In this document: positions 1,937 to 24,246 of the stretch, piece by piece | Layout: each line of letters starts with the position of its first letter | Position numbering within the stretch: the stretch's first letter is position 1 | DNA from: Nanobdellota archaeon | Lineage (GTDB): Archaea > Nanobdellota > Nanobdellia > Pacearchaeales > GW2011-AR1 | Direction: 5' to 3' | DNA length: 41,314 bases | Assembly: GCA_028867075.1 (NCBI GenBank) | Contig: JAGWGZ010000006.1 | Span: 1 to 41,314, forward strand | The notes under the pieces: model-generated | Database searches by the model: none | Seen by the model: the letters and a program-made list of their open reading frames with translations, nothing else | Told to the model about the DNA's origin: nothing | Translations under genes and position numbers: made by a program

Positions 1937-3979
1937 TTATAATACGATAACATTCGCCTGGCTTCCAATATAGATTGTCTGATTAGCATAAAGAGATCCC
2001 AAGTCAGATGCCTGCAAGGTTGCATTTACTGTAAAATTACCTGAAATATCAGTGCTTATTTTTGTTACACCATTATCGTTTAAATGAGCAACCCATATAT
2101 TTGTTCCATTTATTGCTATACTAAAATATCTTCCTCCCCCCACATCACTATAATTTGTCATTGTTCCATCTGGAGCAACCTTAGTTATACTATTATCTCC
2201 CTTATTAACTGTCCACATGTTGGTGCCATCAAATGCAATTGCAATAGGATTTACTCCTGTTCCGGTATAGTTTGTCATTGTTCCTGAAGGAGTTATTTTT
2301 GTAACTGAGTTACTCCCATAGTTTGCGGTCCACATGTTGGTGCCATCAAATGCGATTGAATAAGGAGTATCCCCTGTTCCCGTTGCATATAATAAAATCC
2401 CTCCACTAGATGAAACCTTAGTCACACTATCACTAAGAGAATTAGTAATCCACATGTTGGTGCCATCAAATGCGATTGCAAGACCACCTAACCCTGAAGA
2501 CATAGCATAAGATGTTGATGTTCCATCTGGGGCTACTTTTACCACAGCACTTTGATGAGATACGAGAGCAGATGTCGCAATCCACATGTTGGTTCCGTCA
2601 AATGCAATTCCTCGTGGGGTGGTAGTCAGAGAAGAATAATTTGTCATAGTCCCGGTTGGAGTAATTTTCGTGACGCTATTGCTATTTGCATTTGCTGTCC
2701 ACATGTTAGTGCCGTCAAAAGCGATTGAATAAGGAGTAGCTCCCGTTCCAGAATAAGTAGTCATTGTTCCGGTTGGAGTTATTTTTGTAACTGAGTTACT
2801 GGCAAGATTAGTAACCCATATATTTGTTCCATCAGATGCAATTGCCTGCGGACTATCTCCTGTTCCAAAATAATTAGTCATGAATGGTCCTGTATATGAA
2901 AGGTTTCCTGTTCCCATATTGCAGTCTACCTTAAGGATGCAGTTTGCAGGCATAGCAACATCCCAATTTTGATTCAGTCCAGAACAAAAACAATAAGTAT
3001 ACCCATCAAATGCAATTGCCTGGGGATACCTTCCAGTCCCAGTATAATTGGTCATTGTTCCACTAGGGGCTATTTTAGTTACACTACCAGAGCTATTAAT
3101 CCCCCCATCATAATTTGCGGTCCACATGTTGGTTCCGTCAAATGCGATTGCATCAGGATAGAAACCTGTTCCGGTGTATGTTATCATTGTTCCTGCGGGG
3201 GTTATTTTTGTAACTGAGTTACCCATATAATTTGCGGTCCACATGTTGGTGCCGTCAAATGCAATTGCATAGGGTTGATTTCCTGTCCCAGTATAATTGG
3301 TCATTGTTCCTGCGGGGGTTATTTTTGTAACACTATTGCCCAATTTATTTGCAGTCCACATGTTGGTGCCGTCAAATGCAATTGCAACCGGTTGAAAACC
3401 AGTTTCTGTGTATGTTGTCATTGTCCCATCTGGAGCTATTTTTGTAACACTATTATCACCCTGATTCGCTGTCCACATGTTGGTGCCGTCAAATGCAATT
3501 GCAACAGGGGTTGCTCCTGTTCCGGTGTAATTTGTCATCACACCTCCTGAAGAAATTTTCGTGACGCTATTGCTATTTGCATTTGCTGTCCACATGTTGG
3601 TGCCGTCAAATGCAATTGCACTAGGACCTACTCCTGTTCCCGTATAAGTTGTCGTTATTCCTGCGGGGGTTATTTTTGTAACACTGTGACCAATATCATT
3701 TACAATCCACATGTTTGTTCCATCAGAAGCTATACCATAGGGAGTATTTGCTCCAGAAATGGTATAATTAGTAATTACACCTGCCGGGGTTATTTTTGAA
3801 ACGCCAGAATCTATACTATTCGCAGTCCACATATTTGCGGTTCCTGGAGCATTTCCATTTAGAGTCAAAGGTATAAGCGCTTTTGTAAACGGCAGAAAGA
3901 ATAAAAAAGACATAAATAAAATCAGCAAAAAGATTCCTGCGCCAGAATAAACCCCCTTATGTTTTCTTAAGCCGAGCAT
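1937..3979 (-). CDS. Secreted beta-propeller-like repeat protein (streptogramin-lyase-like repeats)
   Basis: The protein has 680 residues, with a membrane-inserting signal at about 14-36. The rest is about 15 repeats of roughly 39 residues with consensus AFDGTNMWTANxxxNSVTKI, then TPxGTMTNYTGTGxxPxAI. Each repeat has the four-strand look of a propeller blade, similar to Vgb/SMP-30/NHL-type repeats. Fifteen units would fit two seven-bladed propellers plus a terminal unit. One unit near residues 330-385 is divergent, longer and carries four cysteines. The catalytic residues of streptogramin lyase cannot be confirmed, so a binding or scaffold role at the surface is more likely than enzyme activity. 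The start overlaps the end of the long fibre gene by 13 bp, so the two are probably co-transcribed. Confidence 0.7.
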   Translation of the reverse strand: MLGLRKHKGVYSGAGIFLLILFMSFLFFLPFTKALIPLTLNGNAPGTANMWTANSIDSGVSKITPAGVITNYTISGANTPYGIASDGTNMWIVNDIGHSVTKITPAGITTTYTGTGVGPSAIAFDGTNMWTANANSNSVTKISSGGVMTNYTGTGATPVAIAFDGTNMWTANQGDNSVTKIAPDGTMTTYTETGFQPVAIAFDGTNMWTANKLGNSVTKITPAGTMTNYTGTGNQPYAIAFDGTNMWTANYMGNSVTKITPAGTMITYTGTGFYPDAIAFDGTNMWTANYDGGINSSGSVTKIAPSGTMTNYTGTGRYPQAIAFDGYTYCFCSGLNQNWDVAMPANCILKVDCNMGTGNLSYTGPFMTNYFGTGDSPQAIASDGTNIWVTNLASNSVTKITPTGTMTTYSGTGATPYSIAFDGTNMWTANANSNSVTKITPTGTMTNYSSLTTTPRGIAFDGTNMWIATSALVSHQSAVVKVAPDGTSTSYAMSSGLGGLAIAFDGTNMWITNSLSDSVTKVSSSGGILLYATGTGDTPYSIAFDGTNMWTANYGSNSVTKITPSGTMTNYTGTGVNPIAIAFDGTNMWTVNKGDNSITKVAPDGTMTNYSDVGGGRYFSIAINGTNIWVAHLNDNGVTKISTDISGNFTVNATLQASDLGSLYANQTIYIGSQANVIVL
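2220..3900. repeat. In-gene tandem repeat, about 117-bp period
   Basis: A nearly invariant block (for example CCACATGTTGGTGCCGTCAA on the plus strand) recurs about every 117-120 bp through the propeller gene. Most blocks are identical or differ at one or two bases, while the segments between them vary. This is coding repetition, not a CRISPR array: the period matches 39 codons and the reading frame is kept. Confidence 0.85.
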
Positions 3980-11140: not shown

Positions 11141-11148
11141 TTTATAAA
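11141..11148 (+). promoter_or_regulatory. TATA box positioned for the 5' echo of tRNA-Ile
   Basis: TTTATAAA at 11141-11148 would place transcription start near 11172, which is where the partial 5' copy of tRNA-Ile begins (11173), not at the full tRNA (11245). No comparable AT-rich box is present 20-35 bp before 11245. The same AT-rich patch could also serve the divergent pilin-like gene. Confidence 0.5.
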
Positions 11149-11172: not shown

Positions 11173-11185
11173 GAGCCTGTAGCTC
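11173..11185 (+). repeat. 5' echo of tRNA-Ile (13 nt)
   Basis: GAGCCTGTAGCTC is identical to the first 13 nt of the tRNA-Ile gene that starts at 11245, 72 bp downstream. The identity covers the 5' acceptor strand, positions 8-9 and the 5' D-stem strand and then stops. The intervening DNA holds two possible stem-loops (TGAGA...TCTCA at about 11187-11212; CCGC-ACA-GCGG at about 11214-11224). Confidence 0.8.
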
Positions 11186-11244
11186 TATGAGAAACCCGAA
11201 GGGAGAATCTCATCCGCACAGCGGAGAGCGAAGGCAAATATAAC

Positions 11245-11359
11245 GAGCCTGTAGCTCAGCCTGGCTAGAGCACTGCTCTGATACATGAAAGGATTTCATG
11301 TGCTAAATCCGGTGGATTCAGGAAGGCAGGGGTCCGAGGTTCAAATCCTCGCAGGCTCA
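11245..11359 (+). tRNA. tRNA-Ile(GAT), intron at 37/38
   Basis: The acceptor strands GAGCCTG (11245-11251) and CAGGCTC (11352-11358) pair fully, with discriminator A at 11359 and no encoded CCA. The D-stem is GCTC/GAGC, the anticodon stem CTGCT/GGCAG, the loop CTGATA before the intron gives anticodon GAT, and the T-arm is CGAGG-TTCAAAT-CCTCG. A 40-nt intron at 11284-11323 follows position 37, the canonical archaeal site for the splicing endonuclease. The spliced length is 75 nt. It lies upstream of disA in the same orientation. Confidence 0.93.
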
Positions 11360-11439: not shown

Positions 11440-12513
11440 ATGGAACAGCGTGTAAAGGAGATACAAAAAAAGATTACTGAAAAGAACGAAAACAGTGCGA
11501 CAGAGGAGGAATTTCTTTCTATATTGAAATGGATTGTGCCCGGAACAAATTTCCGCGCGGCGATTGACAGCGCGCTTAAGGTGGGAAAAGGGGCGCTAAT
11601 TGTCATTGACAATGGAAATGCATTTGGGATATTTGAGGGCGGATTTAGGATAAACACGAATTTCACGCCGCAAAAACTGACGGAATTAACGAAGATGGAC
11701 GGTGCGATTATCCTGAGCAAAGACCTGAAAAAAATAAGTTATGCAAATGTGCTCCTGACTCCTGACAGCAGGATAAAAACGAATGAGACGGGGACAAGGC
11801 ACAAGGCAGCAGAAAGGACGGCAAAACAGGCTGGCACACTTGCAGTCGCAATCTCCGAGAGAAGAAGCGACATAACGATATACTACAAAGACATAAGATA
11901 TCCTCTGATTCCGACAGATGAGTTATTAAGAAAAACAAATGAGCATCTGCAGCTTCTTGAGAAGCAAAGAGATTTGTTTGATAATTACATGGAAAAACTT
12001 CTGAAAATGGATTTGAAAAATTACTTCAACCTCAGCCAGGCGATAGTCGTTATACAAAAAGGAAAATTAATCCAGAAGATTGCGTCTGATTTGAAAAGAT
12101 ATTCAATAGAACTTGGAAAAGAAGGAACACTGTTAAGGATAAGGCTGAAAGAGATCCTGTCTGGAATTGACAAAGACACGGATTTTATAATAAGGGACTA
12201 TGCAAAACTGGATTTGGATCAGACAAAGGTTATCATAAATGCTCTCAATTACGAGGAAATCCTGGACGAGAATGTAATCTGCCAGATTCTTGGATATGAA
12301 AACCCCAATGTCAACGATTCAATACCCGGCTGGCACATACTCATGAAAACATCCCTTTCAGATTCAGAGATAGACTCTGTGATAAGGAAAGGAGAAACCT
12401 GGAAAAAGATTGCGACTTCTGACGAGGGATTTTTCTCCGACGTAATCGGTGAGGAAAAATCAAAGACCCTGAAAGAAGACATAAGGAAGATGAAGATGAG
12501 CTTTAACGCCTGA
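11440..12513 (+). CDS. disA: DisA-type diadenylate cyclase (c-di-AMP synthase)
   Basis: The 357-residue length equals bacterial DisA. The N-terminal DAC domain (about 1-145) has the DGA motif at 87-89 (KMDGAIILS) and the nucleotide-binding motif at 120-122 in ETGTRHKAAERTAKQAG, read here as RHK where the family usually has RHR. It makes cyclic di-AMP from two ATP. A helical linker (about 150-285) and a C-terminal helix-hairpin-helix-like DNA-binding region (about 290-357; GYENPNVNDSIPGWHILMK) follow, as in the DNA-scanning octamer. It therefore probably couples DNA structure to c-di-AMP level. No c-di-AMP receptor or phosphodiesterase is recognisable in the window. A TATA-like TATATAAA lies at 11402-11409, and AGGGGTTG just before the ATG may act as a weak ribosome binding site. 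Confidence 0.88.
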   Translation: MEQRVKEIQKKITEKNENSATEEEFLSILKWIVPGTNFRAAIDSALKVGKGALIVIDNGNAFGIFEGGFRINTNFTPQKLTELTKMDGAIILSKDLKKISYANVLLTPDSRIKTNETGTRHKAAERTAKQAGTLAVAISERRSDITIYYKDIRYPLIPTDELLRKTNEHLQLLEKQRDLFDNYMEKLLKMDLKNYFNLSQAIVVIQKGKLIQKIASDLKRYSIELGKEGTLLRIRLKEILSGIDKDTDFIIRDYAKLDLDQTKVIINALNYEEILDENVICQILGYENPNVNDSIPGWHILMKTSLSDSEIDSVIRKGETWKKIATSDEGFFSDVIGEEKSKTLKEDIRKMKMSFNA

Positions 12514-14796: not shown

Positions 14797-14818
14797 ATAG
14801 CCTTGCCAGGATTCGAAC
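14797..14818 (-). repeat. 3' echo of tRNA-Gln (22 nt)
   Basis: Positions 14797-14818 are identical to 14864-14885. On the minus strand this copies the T-loop, the 3' T-stem strand, the complete 3' acceptor strand and the discriminator of tRNA-Gln. It lies 67 bp from the original, downstream of the gene in transcription direction. The T-stem 5' strand is absent, so it cannot fold as tRNA. Confidence 0.85.
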
Positions 14819-14864
14819 TGAAAACCACCTGCGGGTTTTCTATCCTGCAACCATCGAATCCACA

Positions 14865-15009
14865 TAGCCTTGCCAGGATTCGAACCTGGGTCACAGACTC
14901 TCTCCACAGAACACAGAGATGCGGAACCATCCCGGAATCAATCCGGAGGTGCGGAACCGTTTGGGTTCTGGCCAGAGGCCTGTATACTTGACCGCTGTAC
15001 TACAAGGCT
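14865..15009 (-). tRNA. tRNA-Gln(CTG), intron at 37/38
   Basis: On the minus strand the acceptor AGCCTTG (15009-15003) pairs with CAAGGCT (14872-14866), with discriminator A. The D-stem is GTAC/GTAT, the anticodon stem CAGGC/GTCTG, the loop CTCTGG before the intron gives anticodon CTG, and the T-arm is CCAGG-TTCGAAT-CCTGG. The intron is 72 nt (14900-14971). The intron contains one full and one partial copy of the dispersed hairpin repeat. A TATA-like TTTTTATACC is centred near 15037, 27 bp before the 5' end. The spliced length is 73 nt. Confidence 0.92.
14900..14971 (-). other. tRNA-Gln intron carrying dispersed repeat copies
   Basis: The 72-nt intron holds CAGAACC-CAAAC-GGTTCCGCACCTCC (14945-14971 region) and a second partial copy, GGTTCCGCATCTCTG, at 14915-14928. 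Thus the intron body is built largely from the repeat found at several intergenic sites in this window. Confidence 0.75.
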
Positions 15010-15061
15010 ATGTAAACTTTAGAGATAAATGGTATAAAAAGGTTTCATCGAGAAAAATTTT

Positions 15062-16548: not shown

Positions 16549-16695
16549 TGCCCCTGCCGAGATTCGAACTCGGGTCACGGCCGTTCTCCAAACTTCAAAG
16601 ATTGGAGTAGTTGCATTGAGATGCTAGACTTCATCCTTTCGACAAGGCGAAATCACTTGAGAGGGCCGCATTCTTGGCCTCTGAACTACGGGGGC
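16549..16695 (-). tRNA. tRNA-Glu(CTC), intron at 37/38
   Basis: On the minus strand the acceptor GCCCCCG (16695-16689) pairs with CAGGGGC (16556-16550) with one C6-A67 mismatch; discriminator A. The D-stem is GTTC/GAAT, the anticodon stem CGGCC/GGCCG, the loop CTCTCA + C gives anticodon CTC, and the T-arm is CCGAG-TTCGAAT-CTCGG. The intron is 74 nt (16584-16657). A TATA-like CATAAATTC (16718-16726) is centred 27 bp before the 5' end. The spliced length is 73 nt. Confidence 0.92.
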
Positions 16696-16730: not shown

Positions 16731-16745
16731 CTGAACTACGGGGGC
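16731..16745 (-). repeat. 5' echo of tRNA-Glu (15 nt)
   Basis: Minus-strand GCCCCCGTAGTTCAG repeats the first 15 nt of tRNA-Glu, 50 bp upstream of the gene. The copy lies just upstream of the tRNA TATA box, so it is probably outside the tRNA transcript. It is followed upstream by a GC-rich inverted repeat CCCTATG (16766-16772) / CATAGGG (16786-16792). Confidence 0.8.
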
Positions 16746-16842
16746 TCACTCGCTTCGCTCGTTCACCCTATGTCTCCTTCGTCGCCATAGGGCTTTACTG
16801 CTCAAAACCTAAAAGAACATTCATTTAAAAGAATTGCGTATT

Positions 16843-23976: not shown

Positions 23977-24124
23977 AGCCTCAGCTGAGGATTGAACTCA
24001 GGACCTCGACATCTTTGGGATTTCCGGGAGGGAAAGTCAAGCGAACGGCTTTTTGCGATGCGTATGCGTAATCGCGTGTCGTCGCATACCAATGTCGCGC
24101 TCTTACCGACTGAGCTACTGAGGC
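23977..24124 (-). tRNA. tRNA-Thr(GGT), intron at 37/38
   Basis: On the minus strand the acceptor GCCTCAG (24124-24118) pairs with CTGAGGC (23984-23978); discriminator T (23977), as in other archaeal tRNA-Thr. The D-stem is GCTC/GAGC, the anticodon stem CGACA/TGTCG, the loop TTGGTA before the intron gives anticodon GGT, the variable loop is AGGTC, and the T-arm is CTGAG-TTCAATC-CTCAG. The intron is 74 nt (24013-24086). A TATA-like ATTTTTAAAA at about 24151-24160 is roughly 30 bp before the 5' end. The spliced length is 74 nt. Confidence 0.92.
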
Positions 24125-24231: not shown

Positions 24232-24246
24232 CTGAGCTACTGAGGC
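24232..24246 (-). repeat. 5' echo of tRNA-Thr (15 nt)
   Basis: Minus-strand GCCTCAGTAGCTCAG repeats the first 15 nt of tRNA-Thr, 122 bp upstream of the gene and beyond its TATA-like box. The match ends at the start of the D-loop, as for the tRNA-Glu echo. Confidence 0.8.

Follow-up and report, generated by a model that had tools for sequence, protein, structure and literature searches.

In Caldiarchaeum, a tRNA-Thr fragment is located 1.8 kb upstream of tRNA-Thr, with a recombinase gene between the two (PMC3293823). This is the nearest published case to the one described here, as in both an insertion has left a 5′ fragment of a tRNA gene ahead of the intact gene. However, the Caldiarchaeum insert is 1.8 kb long and affects one tRNA, whereas the inserts studied here are ~35–106 bp long, form hairpins, affect about one quarter of the tRNA genes and carry an antisense arm matched to the host tRNA. 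Template switching is a documented source of new RNA hairpins, in which a single event places an inverted copy beside its template (PMC8794818). The present cases are similar in these respects, but they have an additional direct copy (A-A′-A), recur at tRNA ends and share modules among their loops. Casposons and Cas1-like integration also target tRNA genes with a short duplicated segment (PMC6614799); here, in contrast, no Cas1 and no gene-bearing transposon with terminal inverted repeats were found, and 5′ as well as 3′ ends are affected. The hairpin-forming and double-hairpin elements of organelles are likewise short, non-coding and dispersed, several of them near tRNA genes (PMC2800124), whereas the inserts studied here lie exactly at tRNA ends, together with a direct tRNA-end copy, on an archaeal chromosome. 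Nanoarchaeum equitans has leaderless tRNA genes, with box A ~26 nt before nt 1 (PMC3491384). Most of the tRNAs studied here have the same box spacing, but in contrast to N. equitans an RNase P RNA is present, and leaders are hence possible. None of these published systems has a host-matched antisense arm at tRNA ends. A published description of the end-copy and hairpin pattern was not found in the open-access literature, although subscription journals may hold one, and the pattern is apparently an undescribed, recurrent change of tRNA genes.

The stretch of DNA analyzed here (the window, 41,314 nucleotides) is part of contig C9 of a draft metagenome-assembled archaeal genome (G000, 575 kb, 88.7% complete). 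The aRF1 gene in the window has its best matches among Candidatus Pacearchaeota sequences.

A copy of the tRNA-Ile 5′ end at the predicted transcription start

The functional tRNA-Ile(GAT) gene is located at 11245–11359 on the plus strand (Rfam RF00005, 53.3 bits; Ile, gat in ARAGORN with introns allowed, -i) and contains an intron at position 37/38, with putative boundaries at ~11284–11323. Its nucleotides 1–13 (11245–11257) are exactly repeated on the same strand as GAGCCTGTAGCTC at 11173–11185, an offset of 72. The TATA box TTTATAAA (11141–11148, plus strand) matches 8/8 positions of the consensus, is the best-scoring position and lies 32 bp before the copy, where transcription would start, whereas the best match at the same range before the true start of the gene is 3/8. 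A score of 8/8 is reached by 0.14% of random genome positions. Both observations of the first-pass annotation, that tRNA-Ile is preceded by a 13-nt copy of its own 5′ end and that the only good TATA box stands before this copy, are thus borne out.

The copy and the gene are separated by a 59-bp insert (11186–11244, plus strand). The insert consists of a hairpin, TATGAGA..TCTCAT (11186–11213), a small hairpin, CCGC-ACA-GCGG (11214–11224), an arm antisense to the copy, and a final linker, AAATATAAC. In the predicted fold, AGAGC (11225–11229) of the antisense arm pairs with GCTCT (11182–11186) and AGGC (11232–11235) pairs with GCCT (11175–11178), and the copy forms the 5′ arm of the leader hairpin. 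A second copy of this insert was looked for in the genome and was not found. Pure chance can be rejected as the source of the copies: the probability of a 13-nt 5′-anchored copy within 150 bp is ~2×10−6 per gene, copies never exceeded 9 nt in 7,800 dinucleotide shuffles of all tRNA upstream regions, and tRNA-end copies are in excess genome-wide.

tRNA-end copies recur in the genome

Among the 39 tRNAs known in G000, eight have a copy of their 5′ end upstream, 13–16 nt in length (Ile-GAT, Lys-TTT, Ser-GGA, Ser-GCT with one mismatch, Glu-TTC, Glu-CTC, Thr-GGT, and Leu-TAA), and two have a copy of their 3′ end downstream (Gln-CTG, a 22-nt repeat, and Lys-CTT, 11 nt). A first survey had yielded 5′-end copies at 5 of 31 tRNAs. 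In total, 10 of the 39 tRNAs, about one quarter, have a copy of one end. As exact direct repeats of 13–22 nt, the tRNA-end copies have the form of a short duplicated target at a tRNA gene. Each of the eight 5′ copies starts at nt 1 of the tRNA, give or take one matching base. The two copies are spaced 50–122 bp apart, and the inserts between them are ~35–106 bp long, non-coding and hairpin-forming. Of the direct repeats in G000 that are ≥12 nt long and spaced 30–200 bp apart (n = 51), eight fall on tRNA ends compared with 0.5 expected (P ~8×10−8); an excess of such copies around other tRNA genes therefore exists, and the first-pass annotation withstands the check that it had itself proposed on this point.

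All four tRNAs of the window have a copy of their own end. Three of them, Gln-CTG, Glu-CTC and Thr-GGT, are on the minus strand and contain introns; they were overlooked by default scans and came to light by comparison of flanks against the window. The tRNA-Gln(CTG) gene (14865–15009, Rfam 48.2 bits) was reported by ARAGORN -i at 14864–15010 with the label Pyl(cta), while the anticodon read from the sequence is CTG. A copy of its 3′ end at 14797–14818 (minus strand) forms a 22-nt direct repeat with 14864–14885, and the insert between the gene and this copy starts with the antisense sequence GGATTCGA. The tRNA-Glu(CTC) gene (16549–16695, Rfam 43.1 bits, also found by ARAGORN) is separated from a 15-nt direct repeat of its nt 1–15 (16731–16745, minus strand) by a 35-nt insert with antisense CCTGAATCCGGGCGC. 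Further upstream is a second hairpin unit (16741–16794, minus strand), which is 94% identical over 54 nt to the leader of tRNA-Arg(TCT) on contig C18 and whose last bases, GCCCC, overlap with the beginning of the 15-nt copy. The tRNA-Thr(GGT) gene (23977–24124, identified by ARAGORN and from the sequence) has a 15-nt direct repeat of its nt 1–15 at 24232–24246 (minus strand), and its insert is similar to that of tRNA-Lys(TTT) and has its own TATA box.

In four other leaders of G000 (L001, L002, L027 and L028), short matches of 4–9 nt to the 5′ end of the tRNA lie at the start site predicted from the TATA box, and hairpins are present. These are probably decayed cases, and weak, decayed copies in tRNAs are likely undercounted. 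The short modules GGTTCCGCACCTCC, AACCCGCAGGWGGTT and GGAAAGTTTGATAAAGAAAACC are dispersed in tRNA flanks, in tRNA introns (Gln-CTG, Arg-TCT and Val-TAC of G000) and in a few other places, with sites at C10:38554–38690, C13:8378–8447 and C26:6562–6649.

Ancestral state of the locus

Most copy-less tRNAs of G000 have a TATA-like box ~31 bp before nt 1, and on this spacing most of them look leaderless, as in Nanoarchaeum. The distance from TATA to nt 1 in leaderless G000 tRNAs has a median of 31, compared with 30–32 from TATA to the copy in Ile, Lys, both Ser, Glu-TTC and Thr. The tRNA-Ile(GAT) of G017 is syntenic with that of the window, since in both the next gene downstream is the DisA-like one (57% identity over 295 aa). 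In G017 the box stands immediately ahead of nt 1 of this tRNA, which lacks a copy and is leaderless. In the congeneric genome G001, a TATA-like box lies close to nt 1 of tRNA-Ile(GAT), again without a copy, and end copies sought in 38 tRNAs of this genome were not found in any. The downstream DisA-like protein led to no further related loci in the genome contigs searched. Since the TATA spacing matches that of leaderless tRNAs and the 72-bp segment is absent from both G001 and G017, the segment is a gain in the G000 lineage, and the ancestral gene began at the copy. This agrees with the original proposal that an insertion or tandem duplication had moved the gene 72 bp downstream. The gain of 72 bp stands, and the proposal can be refined: the segment combines an insert of 59 bp with a duplication of 13 bp, and the genome has at least 10 cases of this kind.

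Structure of the leaders

All leaders examined fold as one irregular hairpin with the copied tRNA end as the 5′ arm. The leader of tRNA-Ile(GAT) in the window has a folding energy of −26.0 kcal/mol (z = −4.6), and the other leaders examined have z values from −1.0 to −4.9. The arrangement can be written as A - loop - A′ - tRNA, in which A directly repeats the tRNA 5′ end and A′ is an imperfect inverted copy of A. A strict alignment of the inserts against the antisense tRNA was significant in four of nine leaders (three with P ~0.003 and one with P = 0.02), and for this reason we used a folding test in which the copy in the leader was replaced by the 5′ ends of other tRNAs. The native copy was better than the average (negative z) in 15 of 15 leaders (Fisher combined P ~2×10−7, with units that are not fully independent, related leaders being counted separately). 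For the leader of tRNA-Ile(GAT) in the window, none of 162 swaps was as stable as the native form, and the single leaders of Ser-GCT, Glu-TTC and Thr-GGT show little or no host specificity. The preference for the native copy indicates that the 3′ arm of the insert (A′) is, according to these folds, an imperfect antisense of the host tRNA's own 5′ end. In the long cases, the Ile leaders of G003, G015 and G018 with copies of 23–24 nt, A′ is antisense to the D-loop. Compared with Rfam, the leaders contain no known RNA family above the gathering cut-off outside the tRNA.

An RNase P RNA is present in the genome (149 bits) and the leader can therefore be removed; loss of RNase P with 5′ ends defined by the start site was rejected on the same grounds. 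On inspection, we rejected the idea that the leader is spliced out as a D-loop intron or at a bulge-helix-bulge (BHB) motif. As the upstream sequence is identical at both junctions, splicing between the copies would require a self-complementary 4-mer before both cut sites, which is absent in the Ser and Glu copies.

Distribution in related genomes

G003 has two 5′ cases, one of them at the counterpart of tRNA-Ile(GAT), and one 3′ case (Leu), and G018 has three 5′ cases. On the 3′ side, modular arrays are found downstream of 15 of 30 tRNAs in G018. Each array begins with an antisense T-arm start, continues with at least one unit of stem - AGGTCGA - hairpin - GAGGCC, and ends by repeating the 3′ end of the tRNA exactly. 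By eye, the stems of these arrays (e.g., L170, L172 and L197) seem to covary, as AATT/AATT, AGTT/AACT, GATA/TATC and GCTT/AAGC. In G009, two tandem leader units of ~98 nt precede tRNA-Ile(GAT) (L043), each beginning with a copy of the tRNA 5′ end.

The loop core AATCA(N1-3)AGWTTYSGCTAA has eight matches in 200 genomes of the order, seven of which are in tRNA leaders (three in G000, three in G018 and one in G003). The eighth match, in G167, is inside a coding sequence and was dismissed as chance. A core ATCAG-AAGAT..GCTAA is common to several loops of Ser, Glu, Thr and Ile tRNAs in three genera. G003 and G018 share core and A′ exactly, and the copy follows each host tRNA (CCTGG or CCAGG).

Origin of the inserts

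The best explanation, in our view, is that fold-back (template-switch) synthesis started the process and that modules later spread between tRNA genes; we give this combination a probability of about 0.55. A tRNA gene without a leader would have received a hairpin at its 5′ end and remained intact behind it. Fold-back at the tRNA end generates the inverted and the direct repeat together, which would explain why A′ fits its host. The insert arm is the reverse complement of neighboring sequence, as a template-switch inverted duplication requires (15/15 in the swap test), and the mirror image is found at 3′ ends, in Lys(CTT), Gln(CTG), Leu of G003 and the whole G018 family. It should be noted against fold-back that A′ has diverged whereas arm A almost always matches the tRNA exactly, a difference not predicted from simple ageing of a template-switch product. 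The small hairpin modules in the loops may also have spread between tRNA genes: a loop core common to several tRNAs and three genera points to sequence transfer, beyond local fold-back alone. Transcription would most likely still start from the old TATA-defined site, which is now the outer copy; the leader would fold into its own hairpin with the copy as one arm, the tRNA that follows would fold as usual, and the leader should be cleaved off by RNase P.

A more tentative suggestion, which we regard as possible, is that Pacearchaeota have an active process directed to tRNA ends that repeatedly adds hairpin modules and a fresh tRNA-end copy at 5′ and 3′ ends. This process might be RNA-templated, because the duplications begin or end exactly at the mature tRNA termini. 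A random stagger would not make the duplications start at mature nt 1, but to take this as a hint of an RNA intermediate is speculation.

Alternatively, a putative integrase could insert very small mobile hairpin elements (MITE-like or double-hairpin-like) into the stretch of a tRNA gene that codes for the D-loop or T-loop, with a target-site duplication that reaches the tRNA end. The families of inserts common to several tRNAs within a genome, the core that recurs in G000, G018 and G003, the G018 arrays closed by an exact 3′-end copy, and the related modules in G000 introns and elsewhere all fit such elements. We nevertheless find this origin doubtful, as the arms of the inserts fit their own host tRNA, the 5′ duplications in G000 all start at nt 1, and the insert at tRNA-Ile(GAT) of the window is a single copy in its genome. 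Moreover, PF01867 (Cas1, the one integrase searched) has no match in the 88.7% complete G000. On this result integration by Cas1 or a casposon was rejected. Nor do the copies look like the att site of an integrated element: at 50–122 bp apart they are too close to enclose a gene, and thus no integrase-bearing element lies between them.

It is quite unlikely that the hairpin is a selected, functional leader, for example one that tunes pre-tRNA processing or expression, with the copy kept identical by selection or gene conversion. The stable folds are consistent with selection, and so is the comparison of G003 and G018, in which the copy changes with the host tRNA (CCAGG vs. CCTGG) and core and A′ are identical. 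However, the leader is not conserved at the orthologous locus, being absent in G001 and G017 and different in G003, and most G000 tRNAs do without one. Very improbable, too, is a decayed tandem duplicate, in which a second gene upstream was reduced to its first 13–24 nt. Tandem tRNA genes can occur and part of A′ resembles the acceptor 3′ strand, but the 22–24-nt cases have an A′ antisense to the D-loop, which is found in no tRNA, the inserts share non-tRNA modules, and the 3′ mirror cases contain an antisense T-arm. The initial suggestion was that the mimic and the true 5′ end could compete for the acceptor 3′ strand, to the detriment of folding or of cleavage by RNase P. Sequence identity makes such competition possible in principle, but it is equally improbable and is unsupported, because in the MFE fold of the tRNA-Ile(GAT) pre-tRNA the copy is paired within the leader hairpin and the tRNA domain pairs as it does alone, and host-matched arms would prevent competition.

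The cases show how a tRNA gene that lacks a leader can acquire 5′ leaders and trailers at a single step and keep its function, and they provide a set of recent, datable events for studying tRNA gene disruption, a long-standing question in archaea. If the process directed to tRNA ends is real, leaderless tRNA genes become leader- or array-bearing. In DPANN genomes, tRNA-end copies should be checked for an antisense arm before they are called att sites, pseudogenes or split-tRNA halves.

Two protein-coding features of the window were also observed. The DisA-like protein downstream of tRNA-Ile(GAT) is encoded at 11440–12513 and has DAC and DisA-linker domains (c-di-AMP synthesis), and 117-bp tandem coding repeats occupy 2154–3620 inside a repeat-protein gene at 1937–3979 on the minus strand.
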